A stretch of 40,761 bases of DNA. It comes from Bacillota bacterium (lineage in GTDB: Bacteria > Bacillota > Sulfobacillia > Sulfobacillales > Sulfobacillaceae). Numbering within the stretch: the first letter of the stretch is position 1; each line of letters opens with the position of its first letter. A program made the translations under genes and the position numbers. The DNA lies in NCBI GenBank assembly GCA_021797675.1, contig JAJZZH010000133.1:1-40761 (forward strand), read 5' to 3'. Under the pieces are notes generated by a model that was not told the origin of the DNA, did no database searches, and worked only from the letters and a program-made list of their open reading frames with translations. Below are positions 6,313-33,973 of the stretch, in pieces.

Positions 6313-6388
<76 letters not shown>

Positions 6389-6394
6389 CAAACA

Positions 6395-6471
<77 letters not shown>

Positions 6472-6472
6472 G

Positions 6473-6558
6473 TGGTGGATGGGGTTGGATTCGAACCAAC
6501 GTAGGCGCTAGCCAGCGATTTTACAGACCGCCCCCTTTAGCCACTCGGGCACCCATCC
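6473..6558 (-). tRNA. tRNA-Tyr (GTA anticodon)
   Basis: 86 bases with a long variable arm, as expected for bacterial tRNA-Tyr, and encoded CCA. The acceptor stem is GGATGGG/CCCATCC and the anticodon loop CTGTAAA reads GTA. First gene of the three-tRNA unit. Confidence 0.97.
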
Positions 6559-7627: not shown

Positions 7628-7957
7628 GCCGCCATTCCTCCCTGGGGTTGCGGTCGCTCAACATCGTCCCGCGGCGCTTAATAATATTAATCGTATCACA
7701 ACCCGCCGGGATGGGCGCGATGCTGACACGCCTGACGAGAATACTTGCCAGTTTTTGGCTATCTCGGCTACGGAAGCAGGATATTTCGAGCCTGATTGCG
7801 AATAGGTATTCCGTGTAATCGATCACGTCAAGGCATTAATACTCTAATCGATAAAATCGGCGGACGGGACAAGCCCCCGCCAAACGACACGTATGGTAGG
7901 AGCGATGCGATTCGAAAACCCACGGCGGACGGCCGAGGAAACGGTTTCGGTCATAGG
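7628..7957. other. intergenic stretch, no supported gene
   Basis: About 330 bases upstream of the FAH gene. It contains an AT-rich palindromic patch (TTAATAATATTAA near 7678) that may belong to the FAH promoter, but no clear -35/-10 pair was found. No coding sequence is supported. Confidence 0.35.
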
Positions 7958-7977
7958 CCCCACGGCTAAAGCCGGGG
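7958..7977 (-). repeat. IS200/IS605-type right-end hairpin (copy 1)
   Basis: CCCCACGGCTAAAGCCGGGG forms CCCC-CGGC/GCCG-GGGG with a bulged A and a TAAA loop. The identical 20-mer is at 33536-33555. Read on the minus strand it resembles the CGGCTTTAGCCGTGGG hairpin that commonly ends tnpB-bearing IS200/IS605 elements. No intact tnpB lies on the minus strand to its right, so the element is decayed or only its end remains. Confidence 0.55.
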
Positions 7978-8035
7978 TATCGCGGCGAAATTCAGATGCA
8001 GGTCCGGTTTTGGGTCGGAAAGCCCGCCAGAGCGC

Positions 8036-8400
8036 TATGACCCGCCGCTGCACCAGAGCTGACGGATGCGGTGTACACCGGGAAATGCGGCAAGTTCCTG
8101 GCCTGTGGCCGGCGGTGAAGGGTGAGCGGGGGTGCAATGAGCAGTGCTGCACCCGCCTTTCCCAAGGTTGGCGAGGAGCGTCCCCGGGAGAGTCCGCTCG
8201 GGAACGACACCGTGCCTTACCGGCGGGGAGCAAGCCCCTCACGGCGGGCCACCACACCGAACCAAGAAAGAACGCGGTGCCCACCCCAGGAATAAATCCA
8301 GCGGCCTGCCCGGGGTGGGTTCGGTGAGGGGATTTCCCTAGGGCCGCGGGTGTCCGGCAGCCAACATCGGAGCCGCGGTTCACGCCTACCGGGCACCAAG
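8036..8400 (+). ncRNA. large structured non-coding RNA candidate (HEARO/omega-RNA-like)
   Basis: This stretch has no convincing reading frame but dense long-range complementarity on the plus strand. There is a hairpin at 8126-8136/8148-8156. CCCTCAC at 8236-8242 pairs with 8324-8330, and CACCGAACC at 8255-8263 pairs with 8318-8326. CCCACCCC at about 8280-8287 pairs with 8313-8319, and GGTGTCCGG at 8348-8356 pairs with 8389-8397 with one G.U. It begins just after an ATGA at 8037, and phrases such as GGCGAGGAGCG recall HEARO RNAs, the guide RNAs of IscB nucleases. No iscB gene follows, so it would be a stand-alone copy. The HEARO link rests on memory of the family; it could instead be a leader of the downstream transglycosylase. 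Confidence 0.45.
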
Positions 8401-8521
8401 CAAGTCCTTGGCCCCGTTCGCTGTCGGATACGCCTCCAGCATCCGGTCGGCGTCTTCCTGGCAAGCGTGCCCCGCGCCTACGCGCTGGGTCTCGAAAATT
8501 CAACAGGCAGGAGGCTCGGGA

Positions 8522-10006
8522 ATGTTGCGTCCCCCACGGTTTAAATTTGCCAGCGGCACCTGGGCAGTTTCCGTTGGCCTAATCGCCAGTGGTTGGTTGT
8601 TTGCCCTTTCTTTACCCGCTCGGGCCGAGGTTTCTCCCTTGGCGGGCATCGCGCATCTCGGCACGCGCGCCAAGCCCTTGCGGGCAGAAGAATTCGGCTT
8701 GCTCACCCACCGCTCGCGGTCAGGACAAAAGACGGCCAAGCCCGGAAACTCCCTGACCCACGCACGCCGCCGTGACTCCTTCCGAGCCCTCGGTCAGGTT
8801 AAAGGGTCTATGCAGGGGGTGCGCTCCCAACTCGGATGGTTGAACGAGAACATTATTGCCCAGGCCCAAGTCATCCGAAACAACCGCGTGCAGCTAGCGA
8901 AATTGCGCCATACGATTTTGGTCGATCAAATCACCCTGCAGCAAACCCGCCTGCGTTATCGAAATAATAACCTGGCCTTGGTCCAAACGAAGCAGCATCT
9001 GCGCGCCCATTTGGAGGTCTTTGATAATGAATTGCAATTTATCGAGCAGCACGGTAACGTATCGTATCTCTCGGTGTTCGTCAAGGTTCACAACTTTTCT
9101 CAATTTGTCAGCCGCCTGTTCTTGCTGGTTGAGGTTGGTCAAACACTGGGTCACCAGGTGCGCATCGTGCAGGGGATTGAGCATCGGCAAAAACTCTTGC
9201 GGACCAAGCTCTTGCACTCTCTCCACCACATCCAACGGCTGTCGACGGGCCTTCGACGTCAAGCCGCCGTACTCCAGGCGGCGAATCAGCACGATCTCGC
9301 CCACCAGGTCGCACTGACCCGGCTCCGCGCCCAAGCTCTTCAGGCGCTGCATCACAGCATGACCGAATCCATGCACTGGCGTACCTTGTGGAAATCGCGC
9401 CCTCACTTGCTCGCCACCCTGTCCGCCCGTTTGCACACAATTAATCAGGCGCTGGCGAATTTGATCAGCGCGGCCGACAGCGGGGCCATGGGCCGCCATC
9501 AGTTATACCAGTCGCTCTATCCCTTGGTGGCCCCGATTGCCAAAACGTTCGCCTTGCGCACGTCGCTCGTGATGGCCATTATTACCGAAGAATCGGGCGG
9601 GCAGCAAACCGCAGTCAGTCGGACCGGAGCCATCGGTCTCATGCAGCTAGAACCGGGCACCGCCCGCTGGCTGGGCATTGATCCCTACAATCCCAAGACC
9701 AATGTCCTTGGCGGCTGCCTCTACCTACACCAATTGTTGCAACTCTTCCATGGGCGTCTGGGCTTAGCCCTGTCGGCGTATAACGCCGGCCCCCAGGGCG
9801 TGATCCGTACGCAATCGGTACTGCCCGCTACCCGGATCTACGTCTCCCAAGTCCGTGCCCTCTATCAGACCTATCAAGCGATGGTGTATACCCCGACCCC
9901 TTTGCCCATCGCAACCAAGAAACCGCCAACCCGTGCCGCGTCGCCACCAGCGCCCCCCACACCGGTTGTGAAAAGCTGGGGCTTCATCCGTCCTTGGGGG
10001 CCGTAG
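8522..10006 (+). CDS. secreted lytic transglycosylase with coiled-coil N-terminal region
   Basis: A 494-residue exported protein. A signal peptide comes first (basic start, then VSVGLIASGWLFALSLPARA, cleavage after ARA). A long helical/coiled-coil region follows (about 90-300) with repeated Q/L/R heptads, then an SLT-type lysozyme-like domain at about 335-450. The SLT domain has ITEESGG with catalytic Glu near residue 357, GAIGLMQL, and ALSAYNAGP. A proline-rich tail ends the protein. It would cleave the glycan strands of peptidoglycan outside the membrane, for growth, sporulation or cell separation. ATG at 8522 with AGGAGG upstream; the frame is open to 8408 but without a site. The coiled-coil/SLT arrangement resembles CwlO-like plus transglycosylase proteins of spore formers. 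It converges on the spore protein gene. Confidence 0.88.
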   Translation: MLRPPRFKFASGTWAVSVGLIASGWLFALSLPARAEVSPLAGIAHLGTRAKPLRAEEFGLLTHRSRSGQKTAKPGNSLTHARRRDSFRALGQVKGSMQGVRSQLGWLNENIIAQAQVIRNNRVQLAKLRHTILVDQITLQQTRLRYRNNNLALVQTKQHLRAHLEVFDNELQFIEQHGNVSYLSVFVKVHNFSQFVSRLFLLVEVGQTLGHQVRIVQGIEHRQKLLRTKLLHSLHHIQRLSTGLRRQAAVLQAANQHDLAHQVALTRLRAQALQALHHSMTESMHWRTLWKSRPHLLATLSARLHTINQALANLISAADSGAMGRHQLYQSLYPLVAPIAKTFALRTSLVMAIITEESGGQQTAVSRTGAIGLMQLEPGTARWLGIDPYNPKTNVLGGCLYLHQLLQLFHGRLGLALSAYNAGPQGVIRTQSVLPATRIYVSQVRALYQTYQAMVYTPTPLPIATKKPPTRAASPPAPPTPVVKSWGFIRPWGP

Positions 10007-18841: not shown

Positions 18842-18871
18842 GGAGGTGGAAACTAAACTCATCAAATGGTG

Positions 18872-18960
18872 CTAGGGGTGCCTTGAGGCTGAGAAGCGGC
18901 TGGACCGCCGCTAACCCTTTCAACTCGACCTGGGTAATACCAGCGGGAGGAAAGTGCCGA
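18872..18960 (+). promoter_or_regulatory. TPP (thiamine pyrophosphate) riboswitch, THI element
   Basis: The conserved THI-box blocks occur in order: GGGGTGCC, GGCTGAGA, then TAACCCTTT, CTCGACCTGGGTAATACCAG and CGGGAGGAAAGTG. GGCTGAGA binds the pyrimidine and the CTGGGTAATACCAG arm the pyrophosphate. It lies about 90 bases before ykoE, whose ribosome-binding site could be sequestered. TPP would switch off the importer genes. Confidence 0.95.
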
Positions 18961-19052
18961 GACAGAAATTCAGCCTTTCTGCGCAATACGTGGCGAGGCT
19001 TTTCTGTCGTGACCCACCCCTCACCCTTTGCCACCTGAGGAGGGTGAGATGA

Positions 19053-30259: not shown

Positions 30260-30589
30260 ATGGTGGTGGCACCTCGCAGCATGAAACTTAGGGACTGGCA
30301 TCGAAGCGGGAGCCGCTCTGGTGACGGTTGTCGCTCCCGTGCGACCCCGCCATTCGTGGATCCCGTGCCCACGGGCAGCGAGCAGCGTAGCAGGCAGTCC
30401 TCGTTGGCAAGTGGCAGGGTTTCATGGGGGCCGGGGCCGACCAACCTTTCTCCCCGGGGAGAGCCGGGAACGGGCAAAGCATTCCCAGACCTGCACCGAA
30501 GGACAGAAGCCGCTCGCCCCAAGGTCCCGGCGGCCGAGGCTGGTCATAGCTTGGGCTTACCAGCCCCCCGCGGTAGCCGTGGGGAATGA
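30260..30589 (+). pseudogene. possible 3' remnant of a tnpB gene (IS200/IS605 group)
   Basis: A 109-codon frame rich in Arg, Pro, Gly and Ser whose last codons overlap the hairpin at 30566-30584. This arrangement is characteristic of tnpB 3' ends, which overlap the omega-RNA and the element's right end. No zinc-ribbon cysteines or RuvC motif remain, so the identity rests mainly on the hairpin and its orientation. It may be non-coding. Confidence 0.3.
30566..30584 (+). repeat. IS200/IS605-type right-end hairpin (copy 3, opposite orientation)
   Basis: CCCCGCGG-TAG-CCGTGGGG is an 8-bp stem with one G.T pair. Its reverse complement, CCCCACGGCTACCGCGGGG, is close to the 20-mer shared by 7958-7977 and 33536-33555. 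It lies at the 3' end of a plus-strand tnpB-like remnant, the expected side. Confidence 0.5.
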
Positions 30590-33507: not shown

Positions 33508-33535
33508 CTCGGTCGCTCCGGATGGCTGAACCCCT

Positions 33536-33555
33536 CCCCACGGCTAAAGCCGGGG
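33536..33555 (-). repeat. IS200/IS605-type right-end hairpin (copy 2)
   Basis: CCCCACGGCTAAAGCCGGGG, identical to 7958-7977 and in the same orientation. It lies just past the 3' side of the minus-strand tnpB remnant, where the right end of such an element is expected. Confidence 0.65.
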
Positions 33556-33631
33556 CGGTTCTAAAAACCTAAACCGTCACCTTCTCGGTGCCTTTCACGG
33601 GTGCGTGCCCCCAGCATCGGCAGTCTTAGGT

Positions 33632-33973
33632 TCAGGCAGGAATGCTTTCTCGGGCGACCCGCTCTGACTCGGACCACTGAAAAAGCGGCCAAAAGAGCCT
33701 CGACTCGCAGGTTGGTTTTGGGTGGCTTGCCACCAAGCCGTCCCCCGTCGGGGACTTCCAAGGGTCGTCGGCAGGAGCGATTCCGCACCTGGCCAAGACT
33801 CGGAAGCCCTGGGCGGCTTGGAGGGTATCGTCACGCACCAAGCGGGCCCAATAGGCGCTGAAGAGATCGCGTTGCATCACCACGCCCCAGACACCGGTTT
33901 GCGATAAGGCCGTCGTCCGGGGGTTGCCGCTCACCCCCCAGCGACCCTGGTGATTGGATGCGCCACGTATCAC
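33632..33973 (-). pseudogene. tnpB remnant (C-terminal part, IS200/IS605 group)
   Basis: The minus-strand frame contains VVMQRDLFSAYWARLVRDDTLQAAQGF, resembling the stretch after the zinc ribbon in many TnpB proteins (QRDLFSAFL..HV..D.L). Upstream codons shift frame, the RuvC catalytic residues and the zinc-ribbon cysteines are absent, and the frame ends 75 bases before the right-end hairpin. TnpB is an RNA-guided nuclease, ancestor of Cas12; this copy is not functional. Confidence 0.5.

Follow-up and report, generated by a model that had tools for sequence, protein, structure and literature searches.

Positions 7950-8327 of the DNA analyzed here (+ strand, ∼378 nt) very probably hold an old IscB (HEARO) element copy that is non-autonomous, IS200/IS605-like, and stripped of its iscB gene, a reading to which we assign a probability of roughly 0.87. 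We are equally confident of the layout of this unit, which runs from a left end through an omega-RNA-like region and a short spacer to a right end, and of its divergence past recognition by the Rfam HEARO model. The window, that is, the whole stretch analyzed (40,761 nt), is contig C162 of a 4.06 Mb source genome assembly; in it the element sits between a fumarylacetoacetate-hydrolase-like gene and, ∼195 nt downstream on the same strand, a lytic transglycosylase gene. The reading draws on homology to other copies, on absence of the segment at the orthologous locus, and on ends that match those of iscB elements. HEARO and IscB are the same nuclease family, with the guide RNA in the 5′ region (PMC9755519). 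We regard the element as an ordinary mobile-element relic and not as a new RNA. It resembles the palindrome-associated transposable elements (PATEs) of Haloquadratum, which are core-deleted IS605-type elements with near-terminal palindromes (PMC3119063); it was presumably mobilized in trans, is now decaying, and is probably not functional at present.

Using BLAST against a set of fetched loci, we observed that the window aligned from 7949/7950 to ∼8331 with copies on contigs C49 (63% identity, E 2e-31) and C138 (64%, E 6e-31); on a genome-wide scale, these alignments had E values of ∼1e-16. Copies on C43 and C55 were homologous to parts of the same segment. The homologous copies that the original prediction had called for therefore exist and align end to end, and they move the extent from the 8036-8400 first proposed to 7949/7950 through 8327-8331. 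The proposed search with the Rfam HEARO model (RF02033), on the other hand, gave no match up to E 5 in window positions 7700-8600, and a direct Rfam search of the region to the same E value returned one chance match only. Of 23 RF02033 matches in the source genome, just 3 exceeded the cut-off, and the window was not among the 23. Against a gathering threshold of 83 bits, even the nearest paralogs matched weakly, at 34.7 bits (C49) and 35.4 bits (C55). Full-length homology to the C49 copy and partial homology to the C55 copy nevertheless tie the window to HEARO despite the failure of the model, and we take the segment, on these alignments, to share homology with HEARO elements and to derive from them, while not being an RF02033 member by score. 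The suspected likeness to a HEARO/IscB omega-RNA thus survives through homology to weak HEARO matches and through ends common with iscB elements, but not through any score of the model in the window. In total, ∼7 solo copies are dispersed in the source genome, including one newly found at C79:15919 in a search with R1, a covariance model of the 3′ part of the solo copies. Since they are strongly diverged (∼63-72% identity), the solo copies have not been recently active.

The left end and the RNA-like core retain recognizable HEARO features. The P1 helix (GUCA.../...UGAC) pairs a 5′ arm, GGTCATAG at 7949-7956 (+), with its perfect complement, CTATGACC at 8035-8042 (+), and these arms are common to other HEARO copies here. 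The rest of the omega-RNA-like core (8043-8176, +) was delimited by BLAST alignment to the C49 and C55 copies, which are themselves the weak RF02033 matches over the aligned segment; it ends in GGTTGGCGAGG, like the 3′ end of the HEARO consensus (GGCGAGG, 8170-8176). The candidate had been described as starting right after an ATGA; in fact, TATGA at 8036-8040 lies within the P1 3′ arm, so the ATGA is inside the RNA and is not an insertion target. The adjacent IS200/IS605-type hairpin, by contrast with that start, was correctly recognized: the near-terminal palindrome CCCCACGGCTAAAGCCGGGG is present as an exact pattern match at 7958-7977 (+), in the form CCCCACGGC-TAAA-GCCGGGG. With up to 3 mismatches allowed, the pattern matched 4 times in the window versus 0.01 expected in shuffles, and it is identical at many element ends in the source genome and in related genomes. 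A compensatory variant, CACGCC-TAAA-GGCG, occurs at C7, C196, C214, and a second element on C55, so that left-end palindromes vary yet still pair (CACGGC/GCCG versus CACGCC/GGCG). By analogy with IscB omega-RNA, the flank just beyond the left end (7931-7949, +) would be the candidate guide portion if an omega-RNA were expressed.

Other copies of the palindrome lie elsewhere in the window. A second exact copy at 33536-33555 (+) falls within 33517-33960, probably an element from the same superfamily that has decayed; positions 33524-33896 share 84% identity with part of contig C115 (L034). Diverged copies were seen at 1092-1111 (-, 2 mismatches) and 30565-30584 (-, 3 mismatches). The window also holds a TPP riboswitch at 18864-18969 (+, 71.1 bits) and three consecutive tRNA genes at 6316-6558 (-) that are conserved in a same-genus genome.

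At the other side of the element, an inverted pair, CCCACCCCAGG at 8280-8290 with CCCGGGGTGGG at 8309-8319 (91%), forms a right-end palindrome (CCCACCCC ... GGGGTGGG, 8280-8319, +) located where iscB elements also have theirs, and it is followed by a terminus, TTCGGTGA (8320-8327, +), that matches the (A)TTYGGTGA ends of those elements. We searched 34 genomes of the family with R1; the model was built from six solo copies, and its matches to those six are by construction. Partial matches, confined to model positions ∼116-162, fell at the 3′ ends of iscB elements or remnants (C57, C59, C196, and G008:C139). More iscB loci with this right-end layout emerged from a pattern scan; among them was the C193 element, whose terminus ATTCGGTGA resembles the one reached at 8327 in the window. 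Each copy was folded to compare the outer and inner stems of the right ends, given that the MAFFT alignment slid the stem registers; the stems differ in sequence and still pair (GCCGCGC/GCGCGGC, GCCCGC/GCGGGC, GCGGCGT/ACGCCGT, and the pair found in the window). The partial R1 matches, the layout, the terminus, and the pairing stems together mark 8280-8327 as the right end of an IscB-type element, which in turn makes 7950-8327 a complete non-autonomous unit.

Between the core and the right end lies a module of ∼100 nt (8177-8279, +) that is common to the solo copies, as seen in alignments A2 and A4 and in R1. It contains a hairpin (CCCGGG 8183-8188/CTCGGG 8198-8203) and a conserved AACGACAC, it falls outside RF02033, and among the fetched elements it was seen beside no iscB gene. 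An IsrB-type explanation of the longer RNA was considered and rejected: the 3′ module adjoins no fetched RRXRR gene. The module shows conserved patches and mixed folding energies. In the covariation analysis that had been proposed, RNAalifold gave 3 of 17 pairs changed on both sides and an unfavorable covariation term (+1.36), so there is no firm covariation here. The module may derive from an extinct autonomous ancestor, or it may mark a guide-only lineage.

Folding energy did not single out the region. The stretch 8036-8400 folded at -165.5 kcal/mol versus -164.4 kcal/mol in dinucleotide shuffles (z -0.17), and the corrected element, 7950-8327, gave a z of -0.36. The claim of a large structured RNA with long pairings consequently stands in one half only: inverted pairs do exist (the one above and CCACACCGAACC at 8252-8263 with GGTTCGGTGAGG at 8318-8329, 92%), but folding is no better than in shuffles. 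Thermodynamic stability is uninformative as a test of structure in this GC-rich DNA, and with folding unremarkable, our support rests on homology, not on energy.

The view that the region lacks coding potential and a nuclease gene of its own held up: its open reading frames gave no Pfam family above its cut-off, and tblastn with four IscB-type proteins found zero iscB pieces in the window, so there is no complete OMEGA system here. Many iscB genes are nonetheless present elsewhere in the source genome, as a proposed check confirmed, with 22 matches to RRXRR (the IscB N-terminal family), several iscB open reading frames of intact length, and a complete iscB on C193, the protein of which carries RRXRR and HNH. 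With the same four queries, iscB grades from complete in C193, through C196, where all that remains is short pieces from the first and last 20-28 codons, and C105:14827, reduced to the last 42 codons, to none in the window, C49, C138, C43, C55, and others. Internal deletion would yield just such a graded series. On C81, C193, C228, C7, and C196, HEARO matches end at or close to a contig end; assembly breaks in near-identical iscB elements probably lead to underestimation of the iscB copy number. Y1 TnpA genes are also present in the genome, and none of the fetched TnpA loci had clear copies of the ends of the element.

The locus was then compared with that of a same-genus genome (G001; locus L087, to which its locus L168 is 100% identical). 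Homologous flanks extend to 7938 on the left and resume from 8509 on the right, with the transglycosylase gene kept, and the gap between them is 203 nt in the ortholog versus 570 nt in the window; with 378 nt taken out, the interval in the window has a length similar to the 203 nt. Left homology is traceable to ∼7948, and the right junction in L087 is too diverged for base-level placement. As removal of the same length at neighboring positions aligns about equally well, the alignment demonstrates the absence of the insert and not its exact edges. Two further copies have empty sites in the same relative, at C105 (301 nt here versus 61) and C138 (378 versus 43), so that none of three tested solo copies is retained there. 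Absence in one relative alone cannot separate insertion from loss; insertion is the simpler account, given three dispersed copies with matching ends. At the empty site for the C105 copy (G001:C24 4872-4932 versus L150 ∼1430-1670), GGTTGA is already present, and the right end of the element reads GGTTCGTTGA, a hint that (G/T)TGA at the terminus may be part of the target or TAM and not of the element.

Of the roles suggested in the original prediction, that of a trans-mobilized element agrees best with these data: both ends are present, seven solo copies are dispersed with empty sites at three of them, and neither a transposase nor a nuclease gene lies between near-terminal palindromes that are exact on the left and supported on the right by model, terminus, and position relative to iscB elements. 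We propose that an iscB-bearing ancestor gave rise to the element through an internal deletion. Deletion from one of the fetched iscB elements, as a simple and recent event, does not explain the window copy, because the 8177-8279 module is found in solo copies and in no fetched iscB-bearing element. From what is known of IS200/IS605 elements, the copy would have moved as single-stranded DNA, its folded end palindromes recognized by a Y1 TnpA encoded elsewhere. Early on, the omega-RNA of the element could have served an IscB from another copy in trans, for cutting the emptied donor site and so favoring retention. It would have arrived between the two flanking genes after the split from the same-genus relative, or else have been lost from that relative, and would later have diverged beyond the Rfam model, probably to no function.

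The module leaves some room for a different history, which we consider rather unlikely, in which the solo copies make up an omega-RNA lineage of their own, set apart by a conserved 3′ module, that spread as guide-only elements parasitizing the TnpA and IscB of full-length copies. Under this reading, many guides would have shared a single nuclease in trans. Less probable still is a trans-acting guide RNA that remains in use, with solo copies being kept as a domesticated or symbiotic omega-RNA set for IscB encoded elsewhere. The intact P1 helix and left-end palindrome, the intact-length iscB open reading frames, and the conserved stretches of the 3′ module common to seven solo copies would all suit such a role, but the copies vary by core deletions (the P1 3′ arm, along with other parts, is missing from C138 and C105, and part of the 3′ module from C55), a consensus search found no promoter-like site for the element, the flanking 19-mer has no exact second genomic site as a target (the best other match has 2 mismatches), and folding stability is not in excess. 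Absence from all three tested sites of the same-genus genome speaks against either domestication or a leader role. The latter, a structured 5′ untranslated region acting in cis on the lytic transglycosylase gene, is very improbable: the position upstream on the same strand is suggestive, and several other solo copies also precede a same-strand open reading frame, but the same-genus gene keeps both flanks without the segment, the more distant orthologs in G014 and G010 have no similar DNA upstream of the gene, and copies are located near unrelated genes. Chance pairings in a GC-rich intergenic stretch, with which folding z-scores of ∼0 would agree, are refuted by full-length homology at dispersed loci, the empty sites, the exact left-end palindrome, and the matching right end.

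Overall, our analyses support the idea of a decayed, iscB-less element, and indicate that guide-only relics of IscB elements, once diverged, go undetected by the Rfam HEARO model and can pass for orphan structured RNAs; the right-end palindrome and empty sites settle such cases. The complete-to-none iscB series of this genome should also be useful for studying the decay of OMEGA elements to non-autonomous forms. With HEARO/IscB elements (OMEGA; RF02033 plus iscB), the window element shares the left-end palindrome, P1, an omega-RNA layout ending in GGCGAGG, and the kind of right-end palindrome and terminus found in the iscB-bearing copies of the source genome; it differs in having no iscB, in an RNA too diverged for the Rfam model, and in the extra 8177-8279 spacer module seen in solo copies only. 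Altae-Tran et al. in 2021 reportedly described stand-alone omega-RNA copies in Ktedonobacter racemifer. In both cases, a genome with several iscB genes also holds omega-RNA sequence that has no iscB next to it, whereas the copies described here look decayed. Like PATEs, the window element has no transposase, and its near-terminal palindromes match those of IS605-type elements in the source genome that do carry genes; its copies are dispersed, a close relative has empty sites, and internal deletion is the probable origin. Unlike PATEs, its copies are strongly diverged and not recently active, and it would derive from IscB rather than TnpB elements and retains an omega-RNA-like core.
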